Part shown: positions 3,830 through 62,022 of the stretch, one piece after another
Layout of the letters: the number at the start of each line of letters is the position of its first letter
How positions within the stretch are numbered: position 1 is the first letter of the stretch
Source of the DNA: Rothia dentocariosa ATCC 17931
GTDB lineage: Bacteria; Actinomycetota; Actinomycetes; Actinomycetales; Micrococcaceae
Reading direction: 5' to 3'
Assembly (NCBI RefSeq): GCF_000164695.2
Contig: NC_014643.1
Span: forward strand, 1,178,001 to 1,242,000
DNA: 64,000 bases
Position numbers and translations under genes: made by a program
The notes under the pieces: generated by a model
The model's database searches: none
What the model saw: the letters and a program-made list of their open reading frames with translations, nothing else
Told to the model about the DNA's origin: nothing

Positions 3830-3916
3830 TATATACCGTTATACCGTGCCTAGGTGCACACATACCGACAACACATTCTCCCGCCGCATCGAGCAGCGGG
3901 AGAGAAAGAGAACTCG

Positions 3917-5584
3917 GTGAAATACCTCAAACCATATTTTGTATTTTGCGCTCGCGTCACGACTTTAGCCTGGCGAGTCTCACCTCCGAAAAACCTTAGC
4001 GTACTAGCCGCCGTCATGATCTCTGCGCTCGCTCTGATCGCCTGCCCCATTCTGCTGGGTTATGGTGTTCAGCGCACCCTTGAAAACCCCGATGTTTGGC
4101 GTCAAAACCTTGCCGTCCTCGTGATTCTTTACAGTATTCTGTGGCTAATCGGGCAGAGCTTTCGGTATCTTTTCTACCCTGCCTACGGGTTCATCGAGCA
4201 GAAAATGCAATCGCGCCATATGGCGGATGCGCTCGTCACCAGCATCGGCGCCGACCCGCGCGCCCGCGCCGCGCTAGGCGCCTCCGAAATTGCGTATGCC
4301 GTCGATGCGCAGGCCGCATCCATTCGCGAAACCCTCGCCACCTTGTACCTCTCAATTCTGCCCGCCGGGGTTGGTTGTATCGCCGGTGCTGTCTCGATTC
4401 TGGTGATGGGTGGCGTGCCGGAACTAGGCATATTTTGCGGGTTTGTGGCGCTCTATCTGGTTGGAAGTATGCCGCTGATCGCGCGTCATCAGAAGTTTCA
4501 AGGCGAATTCTTTGACGGCTCAATGCGCAGTTTCGGCACCCTGGAAAACACGCTCCGCCTGTGGCGTGAAAGCAGAATCTTTGGGGCAGCTCCCTTTCTG
4601 CGTGACCGATACGCCCAAGGCCGCCTGCCTGTAGAAGCAAAAGCTCTCAAAAGTTACCGTTACACCATGTTGTTACACACCTGGCAGGGCGCGATGCTGG
4701 CTCTATGTCTGCTCGCAATAGTGCTCAAAACCGTATTATTCGGTGAAGGTTCTCCGGCACAGATTACGGGTACTGCGGTGGCACTCATCGGAGTGTGCGC
4801 GGCGGCAATTGGCCCGCTCCAAGCCGTCGGCTTTGGGGTATCGACCATCGCGGTCTCGGCGGAGCGTTACCGGCAGGCGCACCATAAAATAGCCACTCCT
4901 GCCGCTGAGAATTCGGCGTATCTCATCGACTATGTCGTAACCACCGTAACCACAGGTGAGCTTTCCCTCCGCGTGGATGCACGCAACCTGAGTGAAACAT
5001 CCTATGGTGTGCATACGGTGAAGCTGGGACGCCCATGTTGGGTGCGTGGCGCATCCGGCGCGGGAAAAAGTTTGCTTTTAGAACGGCTTCTTGGGGTGCG
5101 TGCGACAACTACCCCCGCTTATGTGTCGATGAGCGCACCGCAAGGCACTCTTCGGTTCGTCTACCTGCCGCAGGAAGCTGGGCTGCTGGTTGGTACCGCG
5201 CATGAGAATGTGGCGTTTGGGCGCGACATTCCGGTGCATATATGCGACCGGTACCTGCAGGCGGTGGGGCTAAGCGAATTTACCTCTAGTGGTGCTCGAT
5301 GTCATGACACCGTCGCGGGTGAGAGCGGCAGCGTGTCCGGGGGAGAGGGCAGGCGTATCGCCTTGGCGCGTACTTTGGCGGCGGCCGAAACCTTGAATGA
5401 GCAGAAAGCCCTGAGCCCCGCGACCGTCATGGTTCTCGATGAGCCGACCGCCGGATTGGATGCGCCTACCCGTGCCCGTGTCTGGGAACTGATTGAGCGA
5501 GCGGCTCATACCGCAATCGTGCTGGTGAGTACCCACGATGAGGATGCGCCTGCCCGGCAGGACGATACCGTAATTGAACTCTAA
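3917..5584 (+). CDS. ABC half-exporter, fused transmembrane domain and NBD
   Basis: Single-polypeptide ABC exporter (about 555 residues). An N-terminal membrane domain has about six hydrophobic segments (for example VLAAVMISALALIACPILLG, GCIAGAVSILVMGG). The NBD follows, with Walker A GASGAGKSLL, a Q-loop at LPQEAGLLVG, signature VSGGEGRRIALA, Walker B TVMVLDEPTAGLD and an H-loop at STHDED. GTG 3917, preceded by GGGAGAGAAAGAG, is preferred over ATG 3854. No second half-transporter is adjacent, so it probably homodimerises. It is 150 bases upstream of a 42-codon peptide gene on the same strand. Whether it exports that peptide is unknown, and the other peptide copies have no ABC exporter beside them. 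Confidence 0.82.
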   Translation: MKYLKPYFVFCARVTTLAWRVSPPKNLSVLAAVMISALALIACPILLGYGVQRTLENPDVWRQNLAVLVILYSILWLIGQSFRYLFYPAYGFIEQKMQSRHMADALVTSIGADPRARAALGASEIAYAVDAQAASIRETLATLYLSILPAGVGCIAGAVSILVMGGVPELGIFCGFVALYLVGSMPLIARHQKFQGEFFDGSMRSFGTLENTLRLWRESRIFGAAPFLRDRYAQGRLPVEAKALKSYRYTMLLHTWQGAMLALCLLAIVLKTVLFGEGSPAQITGTAVALIGVCAAAIGPLQAVGFGVSTIAVSAERYRQAHHKIATPAAENSAYLIDYVVTTVTTGELSLRVDARNLSETSYGVHTVKLGRPCWVRGASGAGKSLLLERLLGVRATTTPAYVSMSAPQGTLRFVYLPQEAGLLVGTAHENVAFGRDIPVHICDRYLQAVGLSEFTSSGARCHDTVAGESGSVSGGEGRRIALARTLAAAETLNEQKALSPATVMVLDEPTAGLDAPTRARVWELIERAAHTAIVLVSTHDEDAPARQDDTVIEL

Positions 5585-5629
5585 CGCGGCGCGAAGTCTA
5601 GGAATGAGAGAGTTTTACCTGTAAAACAT

Positions 5630-5734
5630 GCGGTAAAGTTGAATCAACCCTTTTCACCGGGGTAAGAGCACACGGCACGCATTATGAAATTTACCCCCGT
5701 GATGACTCTTAGGGTGGAGAGGGGGTGAGTAGGA
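5630..5734 (+). promoter_or_regulatory. Promoter and structured leader of peptide gene copy 1
   Basis: The -10-like TAAAGT (5634-5639) is conserved in front of all three peptide copies, and the leader is about 90 bases. Inside it, CACCGGGGTAA (5655-5665) pairs with TTACCCCCGTG (5691-5701). Alternatively CAACCCTTTTCACC (5645-5658) can pair with GGTGGAGAGGGGGTG (5713-5727), which is the purine-rich ribosome-binding region; I count 12 pairs, one mismatch and one bulge. The two foldings are mutually exclusive. Self-sequestered ribosome-binding sites are typical of type I toxin mRNAs (established for hok, tisB); the assignment here is inference. Confidence 0.55.
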
Positions 5735-5863
5735 ATGCTGTTCTACGAGATAGTAGAAACGGCTCAAGCGATCCTCATCAACTACATTCTGATTGATGGA
5801 TCAGCTCAAACCGTTTCTTACATCGTAGGCGTTATCTCAACCTGGATTAAGAATCTGAGGTAA
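5735..5863 (+). CDS. 42-residue hydrophobic peptide, copy 1 (candidate type I toxin-like)
   Basis: ATG 5735 to TAA 5861-5863 encodes 42 residues beginning MLFYEIVETAQAIL and ending VISTWIKNLR. It has two hydrophobic amphipathic stretches separated by IDGSAQ, with acidic residues near the N-terminus and basic residues at the C-terminus. There is no Cys, no signal peptidase site and no double-Gly leader. Two near-identical genes lie at 15375-15503 and 16680-16808 (minus strand). The first 68 bases are identical to copy 2 even at synonymous sites, while the second half has diverged. I do not recognise the family. Candidates are a type I toxin, a leaderless bacteriocin or a signalling peptide; the antisense promoter and structured leader favour the first. 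Confidence 0.6.
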   Translation: MLFYEIVETAQAILINYILIDGSAQTVSYIVGVISTWIKNLR

Positions 5864-5941
5864 CGACCCTGCTCACTGGAAGGGCTTGGTAGCGGCAACT
5901 ATTGAGCCCTTCCGTTCATGAGCTTTGCATCATGAAATATG
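5756..5941 (-). ncRNA. Predicted antisense RNA to peptide gene copy 1
   Basis: On the minus strand the motif TGTGCTAGACT (an extended -10; TAGACT occupies 5947-5952) would start an RNA near 5940, running through the post-stop hairpin into the coding region. The same extended -10 followed by related sequence is present at all three peptide loci and at the orphan RNA at 12.58 kb. The 3' end is a guess: the 62-base palindrome 5756-5817 inside the coding region could end it. Confidence 0.4.
5878..5913 (+). other. Covarying stem-loop after the peptide stop codon, copy 1
   Basis: GGAAGGGCTTGGTAG (5878-5892) pairs with CTATTGAGCCCTTCC (5899-5913) over 15 positions, three of them G-U pairs. It starts 15 bases after the stop. 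The equivalent stems at 15327-15360, 16629-16665 and 12612-12645 have different sequences but keep the pairing. There is no U-run, so it is not a plain terminator. Confidence 0.6.
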
Positions 5942-6080
5942 CTTTTAGTCTAGCACACCGCCTACTGGCTGCCGAGGGCTGTTCTTCCGCAAGAGAACCT
6001 TAGATACAGCCTTTGCCTGGAAAGCGCAACAGCTTCTGCAACCGCCTCGGAAAATACGGCTGCGCGGTACGTTATTCCAA

Positions 6081-6133: not shown

Positions 6134-6198
6134 CTTATCTCAACCTATCGGGACTTATCTTAAAAATCCCGATAACCCCCGATAGGTTCCGATAACTT
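6134..6198. repeat. 65-bp palindromic repeat, left copy flanking AAA+ ATPase gene
   Basis: It is an imperfect palindrome: TTATC, then AACCTATCGGG, then TTATC on the left arm, mirrored by GATAA, CCCCGATAGGTT and GATAA on the right. It is repeated in direct orientation after the gene at 7421-7485 with only about three differences over 65 bases. It ends 38 bases before the ATPase start, where it could act as an operator. Confidence 0.8.
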
Positions 6199-6235: not shown

Positions 6236-7411
6236 ATGACTCTTAACCCATTCCGCCCGGGCGCCGGGCATACTCCGCCCGAATTTGCGGGTAGGCAAGA
6301 ACCGCTTAATACGTTTACTAACATCCTGCGTCGTACTGAGATAGGGGCTATTAGCCGCGGCATGATGCTTTACGGGCTGCGTGGGATGGGTAAAACCGTG
6401 CTTTTGCGCCGTCTGCAGGAAGACGCAAAACGTGCCGGATGGGTAACGATCTCTCTAGAAAGCGGAATGGGGAAGAATGCATATACTCAAGTTCGCACCC
6501 GCCTGGGTAAAGAACTTGCCCTAGCTGTTCGAGGCTACCAACAGCAAAGTCACTGGAAGAAACTCTTATCGAATATTGCTTCTCTATCAGCGACGCTTGG
6601 TTTTGCCGGAGCCTCCGTCGTGCTTAAAGCTGATACGCACCCCTCCGATACAACGGGTCTTCTAGACTTTGATCTTCCAGAAACACTACTGTCTATGGCT
6701 CGGGAGCTCAAAGACCAAACGCCTAGTACTGGTGTGGGTATTTTCATTGATGAGATTCAAGATCTTGATAACGAGATGCTCGATATTCTGCTGACAACCC
6801 AACATGAAGCCGGGCAAAAAGAGCTTCCATTCTATATTTTTGGAGCTGGACTGCCTTCAGTTCCCACGAAACTGGGCGAGATTAAGACTTACGCCGAAAG
6901 GCTCTTTAGCTACCATCCTTTAGAGCGTCTCAATGATGATCAGACCAGGCTGGCTTATGCTGATCCTATTGCTAAAAATGGCGGTAGTATCACGCAGGAT
7001 GCGCTTGCAGAACTTGTGGATCAATCTCACGGATACCCTTATTTCATTCAGCAGTTTGGGCGGGATGCCTGGGACTGTGCCAGCGCGGGCAATATCACTC
7101 AGGATGATGTTCGTGTGGGCGTTACTTTGGGCTGGGAAGAACTAAACCGTGGGTTCTATATGACGCGGTGGAACAGGGCAACAGAATCTGAGAAACACTA
7201 CTTGGTGGCGGTTGCCGATCTTATGTCTGAGGAAGAAGGAGATTCTGTGCCGGTCTCAGAGGTATCCAGCCGGATGAAATCTATTACAACGTCTTTGAGT
7301 GCCCGCCGCGCATCCTTAATTGAGAAAGGTGTACTGTACAGCCCTGCATATGGTCGGATCGCTTTTACGGTTCCGGGGATGGATCGTTTCATTAAGCGGT
7401 CGGCACAGTAG
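6236..7411 (+). CDS. AAA+ ATPase (ORC/STAND-like) bracketed by repeats
   Basis: Soluble ATPase of 391 residues. It starts with FRPGAGHTPPEFAGRQEPL, the usual entry motif of ORC/Cdc6- or STAND-like AAA ATPases. Walker A YGLRGMGKTVLLRRL is near residues 46-60, Walker B GIFIDEIQDLD near 168-178, and the sensor region includes IFGAGLPS. A C-terminal helical/winged-helix region follows (VSSRMKSITTSLSARRASLI). The ribosome-binding site AAGGAGG is at 6217-6223. No partner gene lies in the same orientation nearby. Almost identical 65-bp palindromic repeats lie just before and just after it, as if the gene and its repeats form a cassette. The biological role is unknown; defence, plasmid-like partition and element maintenance are possibilities. 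Confidence 0.75.
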   Translation: MTLNPFRPGAGHTPPEFAGRQEPLNTFTNILRRTEIGAISRGMMLYGLRGMGKTVLLRRLQEDAKRAGWVTISLESGMGKNAYTQVRTRLGKELALAVRGYQQQSHWKKLLSNIASLSATLGFAGASVVLKADTHPSDTTGLLDFDLPETLLSMARELKDQTPSTGVGIFIDEIQDLDNEMLDILLTTQHEAGQKELPFYIFGAGLPSVPTKLGEIKTYAERLFSYHPLERLNDDQTRLAYADPIAKNGGSITQDALAELVDQSHGYPYFIQQFGRDAWDCASAGNITQDDVRVGVTLGWEELNRGFYMTRWNRATESEKHYLVAVADLMSEEEGDSVPVSEVSSRMKSITTSLSARRASLIEKGVLYSPAYGRIAFTVPGMDRFIKRSAQ

Positions 7412-7420
7412 CTGCACAAA

Positions 7421-7485
7421 GTTATCTCAATCTATCGGGACTTATCTTAAAAATCCCGATAACCCCCGATAGGTTCTGATAACTT
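7421..7485. repeat. 65-bp palindromic repeat, right copy flanking AAA+ ATPase gene
   Basis: Direct-orientation copy of 6134-6198, about 62 of 65 bases identical, beginning 9 bases after the ATPase stop. One arm base changes C to T but still pairs as a wobble. It is followed at once by a bidirectional terminator. Confidence 0.8.
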
Positions 7486-7495
7486 TTGCCCCCAT

Positions 7496-7559
7496 AAAAA
7501 GAGCCTTTATGTGAATAAAGCGGTGAAAAATACTCTTTATTCACATAAAGGCTCTTTTT
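7496..7559. terminator. Bidirectional intrinsic terminator (AAAGAGCC family)
   Basis: Arms at 7496-7520 and 7535-7559 are perfectly complementary over 25 bases, flanked by A-run and T-run, with a 14-base loop. It separates the convergent AAA+ gene and pdxT. Members of the same palindrome family lie near 16954, 34164, 34761, 52493, 54580 and 56080. Confidence 0.9.
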
Positions 7560-7586
7560 TATACCAGGGGAGAGGCAGAAAAATAC

Positions 7587-12730: not shown

Positions 12731-13612
12731 CTATTTTGTGTGAGAAAGAGCCGTTTTTCGAGCGCCCATCATGGCGCGCTGTACCCCCACTATTGAGGCC
12801 AGTACCAGCACGAAGCCAAGCATCGACAGCGGCGTCATGCTTTGCCCCAAGAAAATCCAGCCAAGGATAAATGCGGTGACTGGGCTGAGCGGGCCTAAGG
12901 ATGCGACCACGGCGGGCGGCAGCTTCGAGAGCCCATGAAAATACACGCAGTAGGCGAGCGCTGTGCCCACTAGGCAGAGGAAGGCGTATCCGCCGATATT
13001 TGCAGCGGTGAGCTGCGGTAGCGGTTCCTCGGTCAGCAGGGCAATCGGCAGCAGGAATATTCCGCCCACGAGCAGCTGCCATCCCGTCATGGCGAGAGTC
13101 GAGAGAGACGATGTTCCTGAGGCGGTGAAGAAAATACCGCACGCCATGGCGACAGCCCCGGTGAGTGCCGCAAGAATGCCGATCACATCGAAGGTGGTGC
13201 TGGGGGATGCGACCAACAGAATAATGCCGATAATGCCTATAAGTGCGGCAAGCCACGCCGATGCGGGAGTCGCTTTCTTGTCGACCGTTCGGGTGAGGAC
13301 GAGGACGAAAATAGTTTGTGTTGAGCTGAGAATCGCCGCCAGTCCGCCGGGCAGGCGGTATGCAGAGACGAACAGCATCGCCTGGAATAGACCGATATTG
13401 AGGATGCCGAGAAGAATAATTCGGCCCAACTCGTTCTTGCGCGGGAACTCTCGGGTGATGAGCAATAGCAGCAACCCTGCTGGCAGCACACGGATCAGTG
13501 CGGCAGTGAAGGGACGGTTGGGCGGCAGAAACTCGGAGGTGATGAGGTAGGTTGATCCCCAAACCATGGGGACGAACGCCGTAATGATCAGCAAAGGCAG
13601 ACGGTTTTTCAT
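12731..13612 (-). CDS. EamA-family (DMT) transporter
   Basis: Inner-membrane exporter of the drug/metabolite transporter superfamily, 293 residues with about ten hydrophobic segments in two EamA repeats. The N-terminal repeat begins PLLIITAFVPMVWGSTYLIT, and the second includes LGPLSPVTAFILGWIFLGQS. ATG 13612 (MKNRLPLLI) is chosen because the longer frame to 13765 runs through the operator region and into the divergent MarR gene. Expression is probably controlled by that MarR protein through the two palindromes in the shared promoter. The substrate could be a metabolite or drug; the family does not fix it. Confidence 0.85.
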   Translation of the reverse strand: MKNRLPLLIITAFVPMVWGSTYLITSEFLPPNRPFTAALIRVLPAGLLLLLITREFPRKNELGRIILLGILNIGLFQAMLFVSAYRLPGGLAAILSSTQTIFVLVLTRTVDKKATPASAWLAALIGIIGIILLVASPSTTFDVIGILAALTGAVAMACGIFFTASGTSSLSTLAMTGWQLLVGGIFLLPIALLTEEPLPQLTAANIGGYAFLCLVGTALAYCVYFHGLSKLPPAVVASLGPLSPVTAFILGWIFLGQSMTPLSMLGFVLVLASIVGVQRAMMGARKTALSHTK

Positions 13613-13636
13613 AGTTCTTCGCAGTCGGATAGATGC

Positions 13637-13683
13637 CTTGAGTTCAAGATAAATCCTAATCACTTTTTGTCTTGAAAGCAAGA
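13637..13683. promoter_or_regulatory. Twin MarR operator-like palindromes in divergent promoter
   Basis: CTTGAGTTCAAG (13637-13648) is a perfect palindrome and CTTGAAAGCAAG (13671-13682) carries the same CTTG/CAAG half-sites, their centres 34 bases apart. Each is followed by ATAAA. They sit between the EamA exporter and the MarR regulator, where a MarR dimer pair would control both genes. Confidence 0.65.
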
Positions 13684-13715
13684 TAAAATAGTAGTGAGTC
13701 GATTTTAGGAGGAAT

Positions 13716-14243
13716 ATGTCGAGCGCCCGTTCCCGCAGTATCCACCCAGATGCCGTGGACGTCATTATTGATCAGTGGAAACGTGAACTCCCCGAGTTGG
13801 CTTCTGAAAATATGGCCCTGATTGGTCGTCTTAGGCGATGCTCCATTCTGCTCGCGCCGCGCCTTGACGAGGTTTTTGCTGCCTATGATCTTAGTAATGG
13901 CGCCTTTGACGTTTTGGCGACGTTACGCCGCGCGGGTGCGCCCTATATTCTGACCCCGACCGAGCTTTTTGCCTCGCTTATGGTTACTTCGGGCACTATG
14001 ACAACCCGCCTGCAGAAGGTGCAGAAGCGCGGGCTTATTGAGCGCATCCCCAACCCGGACGATGCCCGCAGTATGCTCGTGAAGCTGACGGGCGCTGGGC
14101 GTGAATTGGTGGAAAAAGTTGTCTTCGAACACGTGGAAAATGAGCGGCGTATTCTGGAAAAGCTGCCCGCTGAGACGCGCCGTCAGTTGGATGCGGGCCT
14201 CGCCGAACTGATGCGGGTGCTGGAGGATGCGAAGAAGGATTAG
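13716..14243 (+). CDS. MarR-family transcriptional regulator
   Basis: Winged-helix repressor of 175 residues. The N-terminal dimerisation helices include VDVIIDQWKRELPELA. The helix-turn-helix and wing comprise LTPTELFASLMVTSGTMTTR and VQKRGLIERIPNPDDARSML (the conserved wing D-x-R-x-x). The ribosome-binding site GGAGGA is directly before ATG 13716. It is divergent from the EamA exporter across the operator pair, the classic arrangement of a MarR repressor of an efflux gene. The inducer is unknown. Confidence 0.92.
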   Translation: MSSARSRSIHPDAVDVIIDQWKRELPELASENMALIGRLRRCSILLAPRLDEVFAAYDLSNGAFDVLATLRRAGAPYILTPTELFASLMVTSGTMTTRLQKVQKRGLIERIPNPDDARSMLVKLTGAGRELVEKVVFEHVENERRILEKLPAETRRQLDAGLAELMRVLEDAKKD

Positions 14244-15228: not shown

Positions 15229-15280
15229 ATGGGGGCATTTCTCTCCGGGAGGAGAGTGCCTTCATGGTCTTTTGGCAGTG

Positions 15281-15486
15281 TGCTAGGCTGGAACCATATT
15301 TGCAAACTGGATGCCTGTTATAGGCAAGAGGAGCCGGTAGCGCTAACTGCCAGCCCCTCTCTGTGAGTAGGGTATTACCTCAGGCTCTTAAGCCAAGCTG
15401 AGATAAAGCCTACAATATGTGAAACGGCTTGAGCCGATCCATCAATCAGAATGTAGTTGATGAGGATCGCTTGAGCCGTTTCTACT
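15281..15486 (+). ncRNA. Predicted antisense RNA to peptide gene copy 2
   Basis: TGTGCTAGGCT (TAGGCT at 15284-15289) is an extended -10 in the same relative place as at the other loci. The RNA would start near 15296 and cross the stem 15327-15360 and the 3' end of the peptide gene. Its end may lie at the 62-base palindrome 15421-15482. The start follows the MarR stop by about 60 bases. Limits are inferred. Confidence 0.4.
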
Positions 15487-15503
15487 ATCTCGTAGAACAG
15501 CAT
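15375..15503 (-). CDS. 42-residue hydrophobic peptide, copy 2 (candidate type I toxin-like)
   Basis: ATG at 15503, TAA at 15375-15377, 42 residues, beginning MLFYEIVETAQAIL and ending FISAWLKSLR. It differs from copy 1 mainly in the C-terminal half (for example T to A, Y to H, V to F). The first 68 bases equal copy 1 exactly, and copy 3 differs from it at only two codons. It is too short for routine gene calling. It is followed by a covarying stem-loop (15327-15360 read on the minus strand), in which two G-U pairs form only in the sense orientation. Function is unknown; see copy 1 for the alternatives. Confidence 0.6.
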   Translation of the reverse strand: MLFYEIVETAQAILINYILIDGSAQAVSHIVGFISAWLKSLR

Positions 15504-15665
15504 TCCTACTGCGCTTGCGCGCCTTCCGCACGCAGATTTGGTGCCTCGCGCGCTCGGAATCTACGGTGCTCCAGCTCATCCGCCCCGAAAGTCATCACTG
15601 AATGTAAATTTGCAAACTGTACCGGTGACTCATTCCGGGAAGAAGGCACTCATAACTTTACCGCA
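15504..15665 (-). promoter_or_regulatory. Promoter and leader of peptide gene copy 2
   Basis: TAAAGT (minus strand, 15655-15660) matches the -10-like element of copies 1 and 3, here preceded by CATGCGG as in copy 1. The leader is about 145 bases rather than 90 because of some 55 extra GC-rich bases next to the start. The GTGATGACT block is kept, but the ribosome-binding purine tract has changed, so this copy may be weakly translated. Confidence 0.4.
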
Positions 15666-16528: not shown

Positions 16529-16588
16529 GCATCCAAGAATTGCTGGATGGGGAGAAATACCACAAAGTTCTAAGGTCTTGAAGCGGTG

Positions 16589-16791
16589 TGCTAAGCTGGA
16601 ACCATATTTCATAGGATACACTCATGGCGGAGGAGCCCAGTAAGTTGGAATTACTAAGCTCCTCCTTGTGAGCAGGTTGTTACCTCAGGCTCTTACTCCA
16701 AGCTGAGATAAAGCCTACAATATGTGAAACGGCTTGAGCCGATCCATCAATCAGAATGTAACTGATGAGGATCGCTTGAGCCGTTTCTACT
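16589..16791 (+). ncRNA. Predicted antisense RNA to peptide gene copy 3
   Basis: The extended -10 TGTGCTAAGCT (TAAGCT at 16592-16597) would start an RNA near 16604. Its stem is GGAGGAGC (16629-16636) with GCTCCTCC (16658-16665), plus an inner AGTAA/TTACT pair. It crosses the peptide stop and may end at the palindrome 16726-16787. Limits are inferred. Confidence 0.4.
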
Positions 16792-16808
16792 ATCTCGTAG
16801 AACAGCAT
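16680..16808 (-). CDS. 42-residue hydrophobic peptide, copy 3 (candidate type I toxin-like)
   Basis: ATG at 16808, stop TAA at 16680-16682, 42 residues, beginning MLFYEIVETAQAILISYI and ending FISAWSKSLR. Two substitutions separate it from copy 2 (N to S and L to S). Its leader is instead nearly the same as that of copy 1, including the ribosome-binding region, so the copies look like mosaics exchanged by recombination. The purine tract GGTGGAGAGGGGGTG lies shortly before the start. Not recognised as a known family. A possible role as membrane-acting toxin or bacteriocin is inference. Confidence 0.6.
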   Translation of the reverse strand: MLFYEIVETAQAILISYILIDGSAQAVSHIVGFISAWSKSLR

Positions 16809-16910
16809 TCCTACTCACCCCCTCTCCACCCTAAGAGTCATCACGGGGGTATATTTCATAGGATGTTCCGTGTGCTCTACCCCGGCGAAAAGGGTTATTT
16901 CAACTTTACT
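16809..16910 (-). promoter_or_regulatory. Promoter and structured leader of peptide gene copy 3
   Basis: TAAAGT (16903-16908, minus strand) and a leader of about 90 bases closely similar to copy 1. In the segment that can hide the ribosome-binding site, copy 1 CACC has become CGCC, turning an A-U pair into G-U, so the pairing is kept. The second stem (CCGGGGTA with TACCCCCG) is also kept. Confidence 0.55.
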
Positions 16911-17181: not shown

Positions 17182-18783
17182 ATGATACATAAACCTACAC
17201 ACGCCCTGCCCGAAAATACCGGCGCGGCAGACAAACCTAACGCAGCAGCAAAACTTGGCACAGTAGCGCCGTCCGAGGCGAACCCGCCCGTCACCGGTGC
17301 AGTTCCGGCGGTGATAGGTACCGTGCCCTCCACCACTGGTGCCATCCCGGCTGTGCCCGCACCTGATGCAGGCCCTGGGATGCCCAATATGGACGATCCC
17401 AAAAACATCTACCTGCTCAAAGATGCTCCCGTTTTCAAGGCGCTTCTTTCCCTGGGTATCCCTATGGCAGCGGGTCTGGCGATCACCAGCATTTACAACG
17501 TCATTAACTCCTACTTCGTGGGGCACTACGGCACCGTCGAAGAGCTCGCCGCCACCGGATACGGCGTACCCGTCTTCGGTATTATCATGGCGATTGCGGG
17601 TGTGTTCGGTCTGGGCTCATCAACCCTGGCTTCGCGTCTGCTGGGTGAAGGCAATAAGGCACGTATTCGCAACGTAACCTCATTCGCCCTGTACTCTGCG
17701 CTTGCCTGTGGCGTGGTGGTCGCCATTGCTGGGTTCCTGTTCGCAGACCCGATTACCGGCCTGATGGGCGCTTCCGGGTCATCCTTTGAACCGACCAAAA
17801 CCTTCGTGCACCTGCTCTTTTTGGGTGCGCCGTTTTCGGTCGGCCTGTTTACCCTGGAACAGCTGGTGCGTTCTGAAGGTTACGCCAAACAGTCCATGTA
17901 CGGCATTATCTGGGGCGTCGTCATCAACTCAATTTTCGATGTTCTGCTGATTGCGGTCCTCGGCTGGGGTATCGCCGGTGCCGGTTGGGCGATGCTCGCC
18001 GCAAACGCCGCATCCATGGTGTACTACCTACAGTTCCTTATCCGCAAGAGCCCCAACTTTTCGTGGAAACCCAGCGATTTCGTGATCGCCGGTGACATTA
18101 TTAAACCCGTGTTCGCCGTGGGTGCCGCCGAACTGATTCAGAGTGCAAACCTAACCGTTTCTGCGCTGGTGCTCAACAATATTGCGGCAGGATACGGTGA
18201 CGACTCCGTGGCCGCTTTTGGGCTGGCGATGCGCCTGAACATGGTACCCGAAATGCTGTGTATGGGTATTTGCATGGGCGGTATTCCGCTCTTCGCCTAC
18301 GCCTACGGTGCCCGCAATCGAGACCGCGTGCGTTCGGCGCTGAAAACCGCCGCAATGGTATCGGTGGCAACCTCCATTATCTTCACCACCCCCGTTTTAA
18401 TATTCCGTCGTCAGCTTCTTGAGCTCGTGGGTGACTCCTCGCTGGTCGCCACCGGCGAGAAAGTACTGGTCGCACTCATGCTTGCCGCCGTGTTTAATGC
18501 CGTGAGCATAGTATTCGTCTCGTGGTTCCAGGCCGCCGGTAAAGGCTTGCCCGCCACGCTCATGACCCTGGGCATTGCCCTGCTTTTCTTCCCCGCAGTC
18601 ATCTTCGGCAATATGTGGTTCGGCTTCGACGGCCTCACCTGGGCATTCCCTTTCACCCAGATTTCGGCGTGCGTACTGGGCGTGATTCTCTTCTTCGCAA
18701 CCGGCGGTACCAAGGTGAAGGATGCGCCCGCATCGGGCACCCCCGAGCACGGCGTGACCGAGATTAAGGTTGAGTCTGAGTAG
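17182..18783 (+). CDS. MATE-family efflux transporter
   Basis: Twelve-segment multidrug and toxic compound extrusion antiporter, 533 residues. The conserved MATE entry is ALLSLGIPMAAGLAITSIYN with INSYFVGHYGT, and the mid-protein element FTLEQLVRSEGYAKQSMYGI is typical of the DinF/NorM side. The first 65 or so residues are Ala/Pro-rich and non-conserved, so translation could begin later (ATG codons near 17380). It is followed after about 490 bases by a second MATE gene that is clearly paralogous (tandem duplication). Export is driven by Na+ or H+; the substrate is unknown. Confidence 0.9.
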   Translation: MIHKPTHALPENTGAADKPNAAAKLGTVAPSEANPPVTGAVPAVIGTVPSTTGAIPAVPAPDAGPGMPNMDDPKNIYLLKDAPVFKALLSLGIPMAAGLAITSIYNVINSYFVGHYGTVEELAATGYGVPVFGIIMAIAGVFGLGSSTLASRLLGEGNKARIRNVTSFALYSALACGVVVAIAGFLFADPITGLMGASGSSFEPTKTFVHLLFLGAPFSVGLFTLEQLVRSEGYAKQSMYGIIWGVVINSIFDVLLIAVLGWGIAGAGWAMLAANAASMVYYLQFLIRKSPNFSWKPSDFVIAGDIIKPVFAVGAAELIQSANLTVSALVLNNIAAGYGDDSVAAFGLAMRLNMVPEMLCMGICMGGIPLFAYAYGARNRDRVRSALKTAAMVSVATSIIFTTPVLIFRRQLLELVGDSSLVATGEKVLVALMLAAVFNAVSIVFVSWFQAAGKGLPATLMTLGIALLFFPAVIFGNMWFGFDGLTWAFPFTQISACVLGVILFFATGGTKVKDAPASGTPEHGVTEIKVESE

Positions 18784-22666: not shown

Positions 22667-25600
22667 CTATTTCGGCAAAGACGTATCTGTCTTTGGAGAT
22701 TCCGTGGGCTCTGAGGGGCCCGGCAGTGAGCTATCCTTCGGAGACTCCGTGGGCTCTGAGGGGCCCGGTAGCGAGCTATCCTTCGGAGACTCCGTAGGTT
22801 CTGACGGACTCGGCAGACTGCTCTGCTGCTGCTCGCTCAGCGGAACCACCTGGGCGCGTTCACCGGCAGCTCCGTTCTGACCGCTCAAATCGCCGGTACC
22901 GTTGTGCAGGTGCAGGAAGAGCGCCGAAGGCTTCTCGCCCTCAACGCGGTGCACCTTTACCTCGCCGCCGTTACGGTCAGCAAAGAGACCCGGAACACCC
23001 GCGCTCTCACCCTCGAACCATACCTTCGGTGCGAACGGATTGAAAGAGATCTTCTCGGTGGCATCAACATAGTCGCCGCCAGCCTTCGCATTGCTCCACG
23101 TGTTCGTCGAAACCGCATAGTCAATGCTTGAAGCCGTGTCAGCTGTCAAGCCCAGATCCTTGAGCGGCACACCAAGCACCATCACGTTTGTATCCATGAT
23201 GTTCGTGTCGGTATCGCCCCAAGCGCCATTAAGCGGGTACCGATTGGTTATTTCCCAGGTATCCCCATTCGCCTTCCACACCTTCACGAGCGGGTAATCC
23301 AGACCCTTTTCGGGCCCCACCTCAAGGTTGTAGTCGGGCTTACCGTCACGGTTGGTATCGAGCGTTACCTGAAGCTGACGTCCCGGGTGCATGGAATCCC
23401 AAATACCCCAGGTTGAAATACCGAAGTAGATCTTACCGTCGTTCGGATTCTGCCCGGCTGCCTTGAGCGCCGGAGCGTCCGAAGCAGCACCTACATACTG
23501 CAGATCCATGCTCTGGCTTGAGGGAAGATCCAAATTCTCGGTGGGGATGCGCGGGCTCGCAGCCCCCAGCTCGAAGGCTCCCATCATGGACCGGTAGCCG
23601 CCCTGGTTCACATCCTGCCCGGCGAGTTTGACGGTGGTTTCGGTGGCTTTACCATTCTCAAACTGAATCTCGGAGCCTTGAACCTTCATCGTAGAGATAG
23701 GCTTCGGTGCCGCATGAACGGGCAGGCGTATAAGCTCCTCCCCGTCGTCCTGGTTCGCATCCTCAAAGATTATGCGGCCGGAGACGCTTGCAATATACTG
23801 ACGTTTGCCCGAGATAATAGGCTGGTACTGCCCATTAACATAGGCCATGGCAGTTTGCTCTTTCTCCAGGGCGGGATCAATGGTCTTTTCCAGGAAGGGG
23901 GTGTAGGTCGAGAAGGTGATAGGAACTTTTACGGTCTCGCCCGGTTCGACGGTCACCAAAGGCGGTACCTCGGGACGTGATCCAGGGATTTCGGGACCAT
24001 ACTGGTACGAAAGCTCGTAGGTGTGGGCCACCGAATCCATATTCCGCACGACGATATTGCGGGTTACGGTATGGCCTTCACCGTCGAGGGGATATTCGAG
24101 AACGCCGAATGATAGGGAAACCCGCTCGGGATTTTCCTCATCGTAGACCAAAACCTTCGCGTTGACCGCCTTCTTAGCGTTCACGAAGCCAGACCCCATA
24201 CGATCAACAGCGTATTTAGACCCTGCATTGTTGGTGAGATTGGTGTCTGCGCTGTTCATGATCGCAGCCTTCACCATTGCCGGGGTATAGTCTGGATGCG
24301 CCTGCATCACCTGTGCAGCAATGCCGGAGACATGCGGTGCCGCCATTGAGGTTCCGGTGTTGTAAACCCCTTCGGTGCCCTGGCCGACTGATGCCGAAAA
24401 AATATCGACTCCCGGTGCAGCAACATCGGGTTTGATGAATCCTTCGGTGCCGTGCTGGCCGCGAGAACTCATAGAATTGAGGCCGAAGTCGAGCCTAGTA
24501 GGAATATGCGTTGCCTTCTTATAAGCCTCATTCGCTTCAACCTTGAAAGTTCCGGCCTCCACGTAGGGTTTTATGTCTGCGGCGAAGGCGGTGTTAATGC
24601 GGAACCCGGGGATCGTGGCGTTACCGCCAAATCCTTGCTGGGCAGGATAGTCCTTGAGGACGAGCAGCACGCCCGTGCCACCCGCCTGGGCAACATGATC
24701 GAAACGTTCGGCGGAAGTGCACTCGACCTTGTAGCTGTAGTCTACCTCCCAGTCGAGCATCACCCATTTACCCTTGATCTTTTCAGCTTCTTCAGGGGTG
24801 AAGGGCTTACAGCCGTCACGGTTGCGTTCGGGCGCGAGGGTTACATAGCCGGTGAGCTTATCGGCAGGTGCCTTATCGAGGGGGAAATTGAGCGAATAGT
24901 CACCATCAATAAACTTAAAGTCCCTAAAGGTGCCGTCAATAAAATCAAGGGGAATTCCGTTTTCGGGGCTGACAATTTTGAGCTGATCGGACACGCTCAT
25001 AGCGCCGTTGGCGTTCGCAACCGAAATGCTGGATGCGGCGTTGGCGGGGCTGCCCGAATCCGAGTAGGTATCGCCCACGCCGTTGAACTCATTAGCGTTA
25101 CCCGCCGCCGTGACGGTGAGAATACCTTGCTGCGCGAGGGCATCCACCATAGCGGAGTCAGGGTCATCAGCCGGAGAAAATTCGCTGCCAAGGGACAGGT
25201 TGATGATATTAGCGCGATCCGAGAAGTCGCCGTCCTCATTGGGATCTAGAGCGCGGTCGAGCCCCTGCATCACCACGTTTGAGCTGCCCTGGCACCCGAA
25301 CACGCGGATGCTCAGCAGCTGCGCCTCGGGGGCGGAACCGGGACCGATCTTCATGTTCTTGAGATCGTTTTCGGTGAGTTTGGAGTAGTCGCCACGGAAG
25401 GTACTGCCATCGGCATTCACCCCGTACCCCGCCGCGGTACCCGCCACGTGGGTGCCGTGCCCGCCGGTTCCATACCCTTCAGGACGGCAGTCGAGCGGAT
25501 TACTATCGGGCTTAGGGGTCGAACCCGCGTCGAGAGCATTGTAGCCATCACCCACAAGGTCGATGCCGCCAACCACCTTGGACCGGTCGATAAGCCCGGA

Positions 25601-26278
25601 GCCAGCATCGGGCAGGTCCGTCAGAGTTTTGGCCTTTTCGTAAGCCTCTTTCGTGCCGGGACCGCCAAAGTCGGTGTGGGTGTAGTCAATCCCGGAATCG
25701 ACCACCGCGATCTTAACGCCCTTACCGGTGTACCCGGTGCTTTCGGCCCAAGCCTGCACAGCCTTAGAATCTATATCGCTATACGCATTCATGCTCTTTT
25801 TCGCCACAATGGGGGTGATGCGCTCGACATCATCCCGCCCGGCAAGAGAACGGATTTTCTCAGCATCGCCGTGCAGAGCCGCGCCGCGCATCGTATTGTG
25901 CACGGTATAACGTATTTCTGCACCGGAATCCTGAGCCGCTTGGCGAGCCTGATTCTCGACCTGATCCTTGATAGAGGTGGCTTCACCCTGCTTCTTAACG
26001 GGTTCCTGTTTATTGTGCAGAACCTCGTTGGGCTGGGTCTGCTCGTAGGCACCCTGACCCTTGAACTTGACGAAGACGAGCACATCTCCCTCCGCCTTTT
26101 TCATGGTGGGGGAGAGCGCATCTGAATTCTGCGGTGCGGGGTTTGCGACATACTGCCCGTTTTCGTTGGTACCGCCCGGGTTTATGTCTGCGCTGGCAGG
26201 TGTGCCAAGCGCTAACAGAATACTTGTCGCGGCGGCAAGGCACCCTAAGGCGCCTCGTCTGCGATGATTCGGAGGCAT
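22667..26278 (-). CDS. Secreted subtilisin-like serine protease (S8) with PA insert, no SLH domains
   Basis: 1203-residue exported protease. The signal peptide is within the first 30 residues (LGCLAAATSILLALGTPASA). An I9-like propeptide lies near 65-158. The catalytic Asp is in AVVDSGIDYTHTDFGG (about 195), His in GGHGTHVAGTAAG (about 275) and Ser in NTGTSMAAPHVSGIAAQ. A protease-associated insert lies between His and Ser, followed by fibronectin-like beta domains as in C5a-peptidase-type enzymes. The tail consists of 15-residue Pro/Ser/Glu repeats and ends in TDTSLPK with no sorting signal or hydrophobic anchor. The ribosome-binding site AAGGAG precedes ATG 26278. It is paralogous to the SLH-bearing protease upstream. 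It could be released or held by an unknown mechanism. Confidence 0.92.
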   Translation of the reverse strand: MPPNHRRRGALGCLAAATSILLALGTPASADINPGGTNENGQYVANPAPQNSDALSPTMKKAEGDVLVFVKFKGQGAYEQTQPNEVLHNKQEPVKKQGEATSIKDQVENQARQAAQDSGAEIRYTVHNTMRGAALHGDAEKIRSLAGRDDVERITPIVAKKSMNAYSDIDSKAVQAWAESTGYTGKGVKIAVVDSGIDYTHTDFGGPGTKEAYEKAKTLTDLPDAGSGLIDRSKVVGGIDLVGDGYNALDAGSTPKPDSNPLDCRPEGYGTGGHGTHVAGTAAGYGVNADGSTFRGDYSKLTENDLKNMKIGPGSAPEAQLLSIRVFGCQGSSNVVMQGLDRALDPNEDGDFSDRANIINLSLGSEFSPADDPDSAMVDALAQQGILTVTAAGNANEFNGVGDTYSDSGSPANAASSISVANANGAMSVSDQLKIVSPENGIPLDFIDGTFRDFKFIDGDYSLNFPLDKAPADKLTGYVTLAPERNRDGCKPFTPEEAEKIKGKWVMLDWEVDYSYKVECTSAERFDHVAQAGGTGVLLVLKDYPAQQGFGGNATIPGFRINTAFAADIKPYVEAGTFKVEANEAYKKATHIPTRLDFGLNSMSSRGQHGTEGFIKPDVAAPGVDIFSASVGQGTEGVYNTGTSMAAPHVSGIAAQVMQAHPDYTPAMVKAAIMNSADTNLTNNAGSKYAVDRMGSGFVNAKKAVNAKVLVYDEENPERVSLSFGVLEYPLDGEGHTVTRNIVVRNMDSVAHTYELSYQYGPEIPGSRPEVPPLVTVEPGETVKVPITFSTYTPFLEKTIDPALEKEQTAMAYVNGQYQPIISGKRQYIASVSGRIIFEDANQDDGEELIRLPVHAAPKPISTMKVQGSEIQFENGKATETTVKLAGQDVNQGGYRSMMGAFELGAASPRIPTENLDLPSSQSMDLQYVGAASDAPALKAAGQNPNDGKIYFGISTWGIWDSMHPGRQLQVTLDTNRDGKPDYNLEVGPEKGLDYPLVKVWKANGDTWEITNRYPLNGAWGDTDTNIMDTNVMVLGVPLKDLGLTADTASSIDYAVSTNTWSNAKAGGDYVDATEKISFNPFAPKVWFEGESAGVPGLFADRNGGEVKVHRVEGEKPSALFLHLHNGTGDLSGQNGAAGERAQVVPLSEQQQSSLPSPSEPTESPKDSSLPGPSEPTESPKDSSLPGPSEPTESPKTDTSLPK
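22696..22830 (-). repeat. 45-bp tandem repeats encoding protease C-terminal tail
   Basis: Units 22696-22740 and 22741-22785 are almost identical 45-bp copies, and 22786-22830 is a diverged partial copy. In frame they encode SSLPGPSEPTESPKD-type repeats. Such arrays change length by slippage, so this tail may vary between strains. Confidence 0.85.
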
Positions 26279-26436: not shown

Positions 26437-29400
26437 CTAGCCCTCAGCCTTGAGCACGCCCTGGTTGTAGCGGTACAGGAATGCCGCCATAGCATCGCGA
26501 TGGATAGGTTCCAGCGGGCGGTAGGTCTGATCCGGCCACCCGGTCGTCACCTTCTGCGCGGCAAGCCACTCGATCTCGCGGTAGAACATGCTGTTCGGGG
26601 CAACATCCTTAAACGTGGGCTTATCCGGTGCCGTGAAGGCCGGGCTACCCGCATACCGGTAGAAGAACGCCGCCATAGCATCGCGGTTAACCGCATCCTG
26701 CGGGCGGAAGGTACCATCCGCATACCCCGTCGTCAGCCGCTGCGCCGCAAACCACTCAATCTCCTTGTAGAACTGGTCGCCGGGAGCCACATCCTTGAAC
26801 GTGGGCGTGCTCGGCGCGGTGAACTGCGGCGAACCCGCCAGGCGGTAGAAGTACGCCGCCATGGCGGCACGGCTCGTATTCTCGGCGGGGCGGAACGAAC
26901 CATCCGGATAGCCGGTCGTGATACGCCGCTGCGCCAGCCAGGCGATCTCGGTGTAGAACATATCGCCCTCCTTCACATCCATGAAGCGTGGGGCAGAAGG
27001 GGACTCCGTGCTCTGCTCGCTCACCGGAAGCACCTGGGCGCGCTCGCCGCTCGCACCCTGAGAACCCGAAAGGTCTCCGGTGCCGTTGTGCAGGTGCAGG
27101 AAGAGAGCCTTAGCCGAGCCCGCATCCGAGGCACGGTGCAGCGTCAGCTCGGTGGCGGGTGCATCCGCGAAAAGCCCGGGGATGCTCGACTCGGTACCGC
27201 TGAACCACACCTTCGGGGCGAAGGGACTGTAGGTAATCCAGTCGGTCTGGCTGACGTTCTCCCACTCGTACTGGGTGATGGACTCAACGCTGTAGCGAAT
27301 CTGCGGGGCGTTCTCAGCCGTCAACCCCAGATCCTTCAGGGGTACGCTCATGATGAGTGTGTTTGTGTCCATCATGTTCGTATCGGTATCGCCCCAGGCA
27401 CCGTTGAGCGGATAATAGGCGAGCTGTTCCAAAGACCCGTTCTTGTAGCCCAGCAGGCGCACGATCGGGAAGTCCAACCCTGCGGAACGGTCGGTTTTGA
27501 GCACATAATCGGCGCGGTTATTGCCGTCCGTATCGATATTGACCGTGAAGGTGTTTTCCTCAGAGATCACATCCCAATTCCTCCACGTGCTGATGCCGAA
27601 GGAAAGCGTGCCCTCGTTCGGGTCTTTACCCGCATCCTTGAGCGCGGGCGCGTTCGAGGCCGCACCCACATGCTGCAGGTTCGCCTTCATATCGCTGCTG
27701 ACCCACAGGTTGCTCGGGTTAACACGATTCACCGATGCGCCCCACTCGAAGGCCCCCAGCAGGGAGCGGTATCCGCCCTGGTTCAGCTCGGTACCCTCTA
27801 ATGTGACTCGCGTCTGGGAGGAGCCAGCGGGAACCTGAACGTTGTTGCCCGCAACCTTCATGGTCGAAACCGGTTTGGGGGCCGCATGCAGGGGAACGCG
27901 CAGGGTTTGGTCGCCTTCGGTCAGCTTAATACGCCCGGATTCGGAGGCGATAAACTGCCGTGCCTGTTCGGGAACCACAGTCTTACCCGTATTCACGTCG
28001 ACGGACGACTGGGTCTTTTCCATCGCCGGGTCCATAGTCTTCTCCAAGCGTGCAGGGTCAATCGTGACCTTCACCTGGAAATTCTTCTTCTCACCCGGCT
28101 GCACCGTAATGCTGGAAGGCATCGAGAATTCAACACCGGGCATATCGGTGCTTCCCGCATAGGAAATCGAGTAGGTGTGCGCCTTGGAATCGAAATTCTC
28201 GACCGTCATCTCGCGGGCGAGCGACTGCTGGCCTGCGTCTGCCGCATATTCCAGCACACCGAAAGTCTGCGAGACCTGCTCGGGACGGTCCGCGTTGTAC
28301 AGAAGCACGCGGGTATCGACGGCAGCCTTCGCATCAATGCGCCCCGAACCCACGCGATCTACCGCATAGGTATGCCCGTCGGCATCGTGCAGGTCATGGT
28401 CTGCGCTGTTCATCATCGCCGCCTTGATCTGAATCGGCGAATAATCCTGATGCGCCTGCAACACCTGCGCCGCCACACCGGAGGCAAAGGGCGCAGACAT
28501 CGACGTGCCCGTGTACTGAATCGAGCCCGTTCCGGTACCCACGGCGGCAGAGGAAATATTGTTCCCCGGCGCAGCGAGATCGGGCTTTGTGTATCCGTAC
28601 GAGCCGTGGAACCCGCGTGCGCTTGAGGTTGTCAGCTCATCGAATTTACCGCTCTGAACGCGCAGACCACCTTTGAGGTCTTCGCCCAGGCGAATCTCTA
28701 GGGTGCCAGCCTGTGCGGCCTCGCGAACCTTATCGGATGCGCTCTTCGCCACCCTGAAGCCCGGAAGAGTTTCGTTCCCGGCTATCCCCAGTTCGGCACG
28801 TTCCTCCTGGGAGGAAAGGACGACGCCCTTAGCGCCAGCTTTCTCCGCATTGTCGAAACGGACTTTCGAGCCGCACGAGATAGTGCCGTCTTCGTTTGCC
28901 CACTCGATAAAGACCCACCGATCCTTGATTTTGGCGGCGTCTTCGGCGCTGAACGCTTCACACCCGAACTTATTCGATGCGGACGCCGCAACGACTTGAC
29001 CCCGCAGGGTTTCTTCGGAGGCTTTCGAGTAGTTGTAGTCCACCGAATAGTCGCCCGGAATCTTCCCGGCAATCTGGCTGGGTGCAAGAATCTGCGCCGC
29101 ATCCATGGCGTAGGTTGAACCCACCGAGTTCGCCACCGTCAGCGCCGAAATGGCATTCGCGGGCTGGCCAGAGTCCGAGTAGGTATCGCCTACACCGTTG
29201 TATCCAGTCGCGTTACCCGCCGAGACAACGGCGAGCACACCCTGGCGGAACAGCGTTTCGACGGCGTAGGATTCCGGGTCATCTTCGGGCGAGAACTCGC
29301 CGCCAAGAGACATGTTTACCACCTGCGCGCGGTCTGAGAAATCGCCGTCGCCGTTGGGGTCGAGCACCTTATCGAGAGCCTGACCCACCAGGTTGGTGGC

Positions 29401-34163: not shown

Positions 34164-34228
34164 AAAAAAGGCTCTTTATTCCAATAAAGCGGCGTTTTTA
34201 ATGCTTTATTGGAATAAAGAGCCTTTTT
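34164..34228. terminator. Bidirectional intrinsic terminator (AAAGAGCC family) after purA
   Basis: The left arm 34164-34190 pairs with 34203-34228. Core GGCTCTTTATTCCAATAAAG is matched by CTTTATTGGAATAAAGAGCC. The CCAAT/ATTGG centre differs from other members of the family but is compensated on the other arm. Confidence 0.9.
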
Positions 34229-34254
34229 ACGTTGTAGGAATGATGCAGAATTAA

Positions 34255-34760: not shown

Positions 34761-34823
34761 AAAAAGAGCCTTTATTTGAATAAAGCGGCGAAAAATACTC
34801 TTTATTCGAATAAAGTCTCTTTT
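34761..34823. terminator. Bidirectional intrinsic terminator (AAAGAGCC family)
   Basis: Arms 34761-34785 and 34799-34823 pair over 25 bases with two mismatches and a 13-base loop, and have A- and T-runs. It lies 14 bases after the DUF2087 stop. Confidence 0.88.
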
Positions 34824-34856
34824 TAGCACCTGGGGGCCTACCCCTACACTTAACCT

Positions 34857-54579: not shown

Positions 54580-54640
54580 AAAAAGGCTCTTGATGTGAAT
54601 AAAGCGTTGGAAATCCCGCTTTATTCGCATTAAGAGCCTT
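54580..54640. terminator. Bidirectional terminator (AAAGAGCC family)
   Basis: Left arm starting AAAAAGGCTCTTGATG (54580 on) and right arm ending TTAAGAGCCTT (54640) enclose an inner AATAAAGCG/CGCTTTATT pair. It separates the convergent GNAT and GT87 genes. Confidence 0.82.
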
Positions 54641-54644
54641 CTGA

Positions 54645-56079: not shown

Positions 56080-56143
56080 AAAAAGACTCTTTATGTGAAT
56101 AAAGAGGCGTTTCAGACGCTTTATTCACATAAAGAGCCTTTTT
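56080..56143. terminator. Bidirectional terminator (AAAGAGCC family) before acylphosphatase
   Basis: Arms 56080-56104 and 56119-56143 pair over 25 bases with one mismatch and share the GTGAATAAAG centre with the terminator at 7496. It ends 22 bases from the acylphosphatase stop. Confidence 0.88.
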
Positions 56144-56165
56144 AGCAGGGCGGCAGGGGAGTGTG

Positions 56166-61787: not shown

Positions 61788-62022
61788 CGGTTGCTGGCGT
61801 TAGCACCTTCGGCGTTATGAAGGCGCATGATGCGCCACCGCAGGCGAGGTTGCTGCGACGTCGTCGAGCCAGGTCTCTCGGTCGCTCTAGATGGATTACC
61901 AATCTAGTAAACCTTGTAGCTGGCGCAGGTGCAAAGACACCCCGTCATATTGCGCGTGTATGCGCCACGTTCGTAACATTCCGCAACATTGTGCCCTCCA
62001 TCCACCCCACGCCCCAATACCG

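Follow-up and report, generated by a model that had tools for sequence, protein, structure and literature searches.

Candidate type I toxin-antitoxin-like loci with copy-specific repeats in Rothia

Described systems closest to the Rothia module

Type I toxin-antitoxin systems described before the cyanobacterial case of 2025 came from Proteobacteria, Firmicutes and Tenericutes only, according to the account of that case (PMC12390103), and the matches listed from the open-licence PMC literature included no actinobacterial type I system. Among the known systems, par of pAD1 and the related Fst loci are presented in the cited accounts as pairs of convergent RNAs with a bidirectional terminator, direct repeats that are read in opposite directions and a 5' stem-loop placed over the Shine-Dalgarno sequence (PMC7472228, PMC3543317). 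The repeats vary within the Fst family, and these accounts take this variation as the likely reason that pAD1 RNA II gives no protection against the chromosomal toxin (PMC7472228, PMC3543317).

The present analysis concerns a stretch of 64,000 nucleotides of Rothia dentocariosa ATCC 17931 (the window), in which a preliminary description had proposed that a small hydrophobic peptide gene with an opposing promoter forms a type I toxin-antitoxin-like module. Judged by organization, the closest known system to this module appears to be par of pAD1 with its Fst relatives. As far as the sources describe them, both have convergent RNAs over a shared 3' hairpin (predicted in Rothia), direct repeats that are read in opposite directions as pairing sites (likewise predicted in Rothia) and are poorly conserved among members, a 5' stem-loop that sequesters the Shine-Dalgarno sequence, and small RNAs, with sizes of ~230 and 40 nt in par and predicted sizes of ~270 and 63 nt in Rothia. 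In contrast, the Rothia peptide is unrelated to Fst, is slightly acidic and has no P-x-x-x-G motif of the kind described for Fst, and the Rothia leader holds a single repeat, which lies in an apical loop and stops 44 nt short of the start codon (5690 against the ATG at 5735 in copy A), whereas the repeats of the Streptococcus mutans Fst member are described as overlapping the start codon. The actinobacterial host and a 3' hairpin without a T-run also set the Rothia module apart from par/Fst. With a different peptide signature and a different repeat position, the module would be par-like in its working, while membership in par/Fst is not established.

In Escherichia coli, the antitoxin gene istR-1 is divergent and lies upstream of tisB, and IstR-1 acts at the tisB standby region, whereas the predicted Rothia antisense gene is convergent and downstream. 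What tisB/istR-1 has in common with the Rothia module is a ribosome-binding site that is sequestered, together with a distant upstream standby region that is single-stranded, as given in the cited account (PMC7708055). A type I-like proposal outside the three known phyla was also made for msoT1/msoA1 of Microcystis (PMC12390103), which has another peptide and belongs to another phylum, and for which the source reports a growth effect in E. coli, whereas the Rothia module is known from sequence alone.

Copy A, its paralogues and a loss in Rothia aeria

Examination of copy A bore out most parts of the preliminary description. The 42-residue peptide ORF at 5735..5863 (plus strand) encodes MLFYEIVETAQAILINYILIDGSAQTVSYIVGVISTWIKNLR and has paralogues, the TAAAGT element stands at 5634..5639 (plus strand; a -10-like motif only) and recurs in 9 of 11 loci (TAAAGG in D1; altered in G1D), a strong stem-loop follows the stop codon at 5878..5913 (plus strand), and the opposing extended -10, TGTGCTAGACT, lies on the minus strand at 5947..5957. 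An equivalent of this antisense motif was found in 11 of 11 loci, reading CACA in ten and CATA in G1b in plus-strand letters. Upstream of the ORF, the predicted leader (5646..5734, plus strand) is a single long hairpin with a 21-nt apical loop, and the left arm of this hairpin pairs at its base with part of the Shine-Dalgarno region (5717..5729, plus strand). The direct repeat DR1, GCATTATGAAAT, lies inside the leader loop at 5679..5690 (plus strand), and DR2, GCATCATGAAAT, at 5927..5938 (plus strand) marks the predicted 5' end of the antisense RNA. The hairpin after the stop codon is a candidate bidirectional terminator without a T-run, and if both transcripts end there the sense RNA would measure ~270 nt and the putative antisense (antitoxin) RNA, placed from motif spacing at 5878..5940 on the minus strand, ~63 nt. 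A strict pattern scan of 5580-6020 returned neither a complete strict sigma-70 promoter nor a T-run terminator, so that transcript starts and ends are predicted from conservation only. The antisense RNA had earlier been expected to oppose the 3' half of the gene; this is probably wrong, since the predicted RNA begins near 5940 and reaches the 3' hairpin before the ORF, so that it would probably act chiefly on the 3' UTR and, via the direct repeat, on the leader loop.

The R. dentocariosa genome (2,506,025 bases, one contig) contains seven paralogues of the 42-residue peptide, hereafter class 1. Three are in the window, with A on the plus strand and B and C on the minus strand, as the preliminary description had counted, and the others are D1, D2 and D3 at 805-808 kb and E at 1,128 kb. 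Four further copies (G1a, G1b, G1E and G1D) were found in Rothia aeria AP017895.1; copy A is thus one of 11 loci in two species, and its earlier designation as a founder locus is unsupported. The ORF of copy C occupies 16680..16808 (minus strand), with DR1 at 16851..16864 and DR2 at 16604..16617 (both ATCCTATGAAATAT, minus strand) and the antisense extended -10 at 16587..16597 (plus strand). The corresponding features of copy B are the ORF at 15375..15503, DR1 at 15608..15619 and DR2 at 15298..15309 (both CAGTTTGCAAAT), all on the minus strand, and the antisense extended -10 opposite the ORF at 15279..15289 (plus strand). Copy B also carries an insertion at 15512..15574 (minus strand), a dispersed repeat of ~57-60 nt that occurs at two other genome sites (1,655,308 and 1,323,747). 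As this insertion splits the leader hairpin from the start codon, translation of copy B is probably impaired in ATCC 17931. An N-terminal extension related to the insertion was present in at least five database relatives (5 of the 21 listed).

A search for the peptide across Rothia and its relatives, as the preliminary description had proposed, did return homologues, and their distribution was narrow: class 1 occurred in 2 of 35 genomes of the genus, and among 396 genomes drawn from the order the only real match was in the source genome. A third candidate in the genus (E 0.07, inside a 179-codon frame) was discarded, as was one match from the order scan (E 0.003), which covered 21 residues inside a 2077-codon frame and was attributed to chance. 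The protein database yielded 47 relatives of the peptide at E up to 0.01, of which only two carried a source name, both Rothia dentocariosa. One of these two, family member P0018, bears the public name 'cell division protein FtsL', apparently through automatic misnaming; the present analysis gave no support for this name.

The R. aeria site that matches copy A has flanks of 91-99% identity extending into the AAA ATPase gene, and it retains the leader with an identical loop, while the segment corresponding to window positions 5725-6001 (277 bp) is missing. A single deletion took away the final part of the Shine-Dalgarno region along with the ORF, the 3' hairpin, DR2 and the antisense promoter, and its ends do not span from repeat to repeat. 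Such joint loss would be expected of a toxin and an antitoxin that can be lost only together, although one event proves little.

Repeats, hairpins, peptide and the readings they allow

At each locus a stretch of 12-15 nt occurs twice, in the leader and again beyond the 3' hairpin beside the opposing -10, and its sequence varies by copy. In addition to GCATTATGAAAT/GCATCATGAAAT in A, CAGTTTGCAAAT in B and ATCCTATGAAATAT in C, the repeats are TTAACCATAATGCAG in D1 (one mismatch), GCATATCAAAGT in D2, TCCATTTCAGTAA in D3, ACTTTGCGAAGA in E and AACTCATAAAGATA in G1b, and they are common to the orthologues of the two species (B/G1a, D3/G1D and E/G1E). The conserved module continues beyond both repeats, with the promoter and left stem arm upstream and TAGCACAC downstream. 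Like those of par/Fst, these direct repeats are oriented for opposite transcription and vary among paralogues. As the opposing RNA would be read from the other strand, it would carry the complement of the leader repeat, and in copy A the single mismatch gives a G-U pair. When the antisense start is set at a fixed spacing of 6 nt from the -10, all 11 loci have a repeat that begins at most ~4 nt from the predicted 5' end.

Pairing between loops and antisense tails was compared for eight independent copies of the 11, excluding G1a, G1D and G1E as orthologues with the same repeat. The locus's own combination gave the best pair in all eight rows, and among the 40320 possible assignments none equalled the own one, whether ranked by match score or by duplex energy. 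When the loops were shuffled, 2 of 2000 scored as high as the own loop for A, and none of 2000 did so for any of the remaining seven copies. Use of full leaders gave a less sharp result than loops, the own RNA being best or tied with that of the orthologue in 10 of 11 rows. Close rivals were the C RNA on the A leader (-16.0 versus -17.0 kcal/mol for its own), the E RNA on the D1 leader (-21.6 versus -21.7 kcal/mol) and the B RNA on the G1b leader (-20.4 versus -22.0 kcal/mol), and for the G1D leader the RNA of the orthologue was slightly ahead (-21.2 versus -20.4 kcal/mol).

The leaders are 84-90 nt long (146 in B) and fold as a long hairpin in which an extended Shine-Dalgarno sequence is partly paired at the base and an apical loop of ~21 nt holds the repeat; small helices occur inside the apical loop in D2, G1b and the leaders of a second peptide class treated below. 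For 8 of the 10 leaders folded (dot-brackets; 6 of 8 in class 1 and 2 of 2 in class 2), the structure of lowest energy was this expected hairpin; D1 and E favour another fold in isolation. A 5' stem-loop over the Shine-Dalgarno sequence, as in par/Fst, is thus present with mixed fold z-scores (n = 10: -2.19, -1.86, +0.62, +0.33, -1.27, -2.62, -0.71, -0.73, -2.52 and -1.76), and since two of these are positive we relied on the fit between arms and not on single-sequence energy. For the eight class 1 leaders, with G1a in place of the interrupted B, only 20 of 40320 permutations of the arms did as well as the own assignment, and for 13 leaders 1 of 100000 did so; row by row, the own arm ranked first or equal first for 4 of the 8 class 1 leaders and for 5 of 13 overall. 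A long 3' hairpin was found in all eight loci folded (without a T-run terminator in copy A), and 2 of 40320 permutations of its arms did as well, the own arm being best in 6 of 8 rows.

Analysis of nucleotide substitution indicated purifying selection on the frame, with dN/dS values of 0.0-0.61 in 15 of 16 pairs compared. The exception was B versus C at 0.91, which rests on four changes in total; among the low values, B-G1a and E-G1E have two changes each and the 0.0 of G1b-D2 stems from saturated synonymous sites. The 42-codon frame looks like a gene on this evidence. The conserved module, its repeats, their complementarity, the matched stems and the selection on the frame are features of the DNA itself.

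Each peptide has 42 residues with a GRAVY of 0.68-0.94 in 11 of 11 copies, within the type I toxin range of fewer than 60 mostly hydrophobic residues. The net charge is -1 in 10 of 11 and -3 in D2, the 19-residue hydropathy peak is modest (1.27-1.65), and no class 1 peptide of either genome contains proline (0 of 11). An AlphaFold2 model of the peptide (pLDDT 75.5, pTM 0.37) has two helices, 2-21 and 24-41, joined by a turn at D21-G22, and this helix-turn-helix would suit a membrane-active hairpin but has little diagnostic value. Acidic charge, modest hydropathy and the modelled fold do not fit a peptide made of one membrane helix and a basic tail. The best family matches were at E 0.046 in NCBIfam, 0.067 in Pfam and 0.95 among PDB sequences, with none in PHROGs; the Fst/Ldr peptide signature is absent and no Pfam or NCBIfam family scored better than E 0.04. 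Phage and plasmid collections gave matches to the 42-residue peptide only at E >=3, and viral contigs gave none.

We consider it probable that these loci represent a previously undescribed type I toxin-antitoxin-like family of Actinomycetota, that is, a self-toxic small peptide under antisense control. The copy-specific repeats, matched stem arms, purifying selection and joint loss in R. aeria all lend support to the type I-like reading first given in the preliminary description, and the second peptide class treated below, with its similar leader, also counts in its favour. Against it stand the negative strict scan for a promoter and a terminator in copy A, the mixed z-scores, the less clean row-by-row fit of the stem arms, the close rivals among full leaders, the charge, hydropathy and modelled fold of the peptide, the occurrence of class 1 in only 2 of 35 genomes of the genus, and the transporter genes near several copies, which would suit an exported peptide as well. 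Considered separately, antisense control of the 42-residue peptide is very likely, and a toxin-antitoxin function of the Rothia modules is likely, as judged from these sequence features. From the same features we infer transcription, repression and toxicity, which may be connected as follows. Two convergent RNAs per locus would meet over the shared 3' hairpin. The sense RNA would encode the hydrophobic 42-residue peptide, with a leader hairpin that hides part of the Shine-Dalgarno sequence and exposes a loop of ~21 nt. The short antisense RNA would start with a tail of 12-15 nt. Since both ends of the module contain the repeat but would be read in opposite directions, this tail would be complementary to the loop, and the antisense RNA would also bear the complement of the shared 3' hairpin. 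Pairing at both places could keep the message untranslated or route it to an RNase; upon loss of the short-lived antisense RNA, the message would be freed, the peptide made and the membrane of the producing cell damaged.

Alternatively, the peptide may be an exported or surface-active product of the bacteriocin or modulin type, whose amount the antisense RNA merely tunes with no toxin-antitoxin module involved. The helix-turn-helix model, the several paralogues per genome and the transporters near several copies (ABC at 3854-5584, MatE at 17182 and an ABC-2 pair between D1 and D2) agree with such a product, but the neighbours of the copies inspected vary and include no common exporter or immunity gene, and no match better than E 0.04 was obtained in Pfam, NCBIfam, PHROGs or PDB sequences, where leaderless bacteriocin and phenol-soluble-modulin-like families also went unmatched. 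The copy-specific repeats, which would provide each paralogue with a private antisense RNA, are hard to explain for a shared secreted product, and we regard this alternative as unlikely.

It is highly improbable that the repeats are DNA features, such as target-site duplications of a mobile element or recombination or protein-binding sites, with no functional antisense RNA. Copy-specific short direct repeats round a core do resemble a transposition target duplication, but the continuation of the module outside both repeats (TAGCACAC downstream) and the ends of the R. aeria deletion, which did not run from repeat to repeat, were the grounds for rejecting a target-site duplication or recombination site. 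The binding site of a single protein would be common to all copies, whereas the repeats differ, and in the copies tested one repeat lies within the leader loop and the other where the antisense RNA is predicted to begin. An antisense RNA that activates, by pairing with the apical loop, opening the hairpin and freeing the Shine-Dalgarno sequence, also seems most unlikely. The loop belongs to the hairpin that hides the Shine-Dalgarno sequence, so that pairing could remodel it; yet the base helix that holds the Shine-Dalgarno sequence is long and does not include the loop, and the loss of the antisense promoter along with the ORF suits an antitoxin better. If the type I-like reading is true, the known range of type I systems would grow by a phylum that includes many species of medical and industrial importance, a signature in which the leader-loop repeat equals the antisense 5' end could find systems without peptide homology, and seven loop/antisense pairs in one genome would be a natural test of RNA-pair divergence after duplication.

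A second peptide family and other features of the window

A covariance model built from ten class 1 leaders found, apart from the copies already known, an extra locus in both species (L047 and L045), which encodes MPKKGKSKIALAAARIIKALAQLVKAIADLIDVIG, a peptide unrelated to the 42-residue peptide. This and its relatives, designated class 2, are cationic amphipathic peptides of 35-36 residues in Rothia, with ORFs at L047:1586-1693 and L050:1495-1602 (plus strand), further loci at L062, L055 and L056, and a plasmid copy at NZ_CP056082.1 12870-12974 (L053:5001-5105). The leader models used were R1 and R2, and the L050 row of the alignment behind R2 extends a few bases beyond the start codon. Weak matches to R1 or R2 (e.g. 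L066, L067, L069, L070, L072, L074 and L075) were protein-coding or unrelated by eye and were set aside. Searches for the peptide gave matches at E up to 0.05, several of them weak, in 9 of 197 genomes of the family, and relatives were present in the Rothia genomes G020, G010, G016 and G007, with adjoining peptide and leader model matches in G010 and G007. The G020 peptide is identical to the one on the Rothia nasimurium plasmid NZ_CP056082.1, where the gene has a ParA gene 0.5 kb away and RepA at a distance of 2.6 kb, a location that suggests an addiction module. Two class 2 copies in G020:C3 lie 21,451 bp apart, and the plasmid record measures 42,892 bp, as in a dimer. A family scan of three class 2 peptides returned a Pfam match for one, at E 0.17 and below the cut-off of that family.

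In five independent class 2 loci, the loop of the leader contains a copy of a stretch that lies close to the 3' end of the same locus's ORF. The repeats are CTGACCTAATC (11 nt), GCTGACT (7), TGCCGAACT (9), CTGAACTC (8) and TCAACT (6), and codon changes in an I-A-D/E/Q-L stretch are mirrored in the loops. Ranked by match length, the own assignment came first among the 120 permutations, and by energy one other equalled it. Row by row, the own match was longest in 3 of 5, tied in L050 and beaten in L056 (6 versus 8), and by energy the own was best in 3 of 5. The L056 loop fits the L047 ORF better than its own (8 versus 6), and in this copy the peptide frame and a GTG start are offset by one base in a run of A, indicating a copy that is broken or misread. 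A narrower loop window, with part of the L050 loop outside it, gave 1 and 6 of 120, and the wider one, to which the row-by-row counts belong, gave 1 and 2. The comparison left out L045 (the L047 orthologue, with the same repeat), L052 (an identical second L050 copy), L051 and L054 (leader truncated or absent), L058 (in which neither a start nor a leader was seen), the weak matches L057, L059, L060, L061 and L063, and also L073 and L078. An opposing promoter in class 2 was seen by eye only (e.g. TATAAT in L047).

Class 2 as the same kind of module would be a good lead, not established, with weaker support than class 1. We lean slightly towards a wider reading, in which one RNA scaffold, a Shine-Dalgarno-hiding hairpin with an exchangeable loop that copies part of the antisense template of the same locus, would control at least two unrelated self-toxic peptide families in Rothia. 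Each duplication would then have acquired its own loop/antisense pair, and the loci would form the first type I-like group in Actinomycetota, both chromosomal and plasmid-borne.

Transporter genes were observed near several peptide copies (window 3854-5584, 12731-13765 and 17182-18783; L018:5469-7182; L019:3252-4769), comprising ABC, MatE, EamA and ABC-2 types and a sugar-transporter-like frame identified by eye, and this proximity may be due to chance. Near-identical stretches of ~60 bp at ~6136-6197 and 7424-7486 flank the AAA ATPase gene (6236-7411) in a cassette-like arrangement, as seen by eye. Against Rfam, a SAM riboswitch (RF00162) at 61781-61897 (minus strand) scored above the gathering score, and the only other matches were weak microRNA ones away from the module. 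A dispersed palindromic repeat of ~65 nt (AAAAAGAGCCTTTAT... and its mirror) occurs at 7496-7560, 34165-34229, 34761-34825, 54580-54644 and 56080-56144, and a piece similar to it lies upstream of copy C. Two long minus-strand frames at 22667-26278 and 26437-30378 (1203 and 1313 residues) share stretches of 72-80% identity and resemble a tandem duplication.
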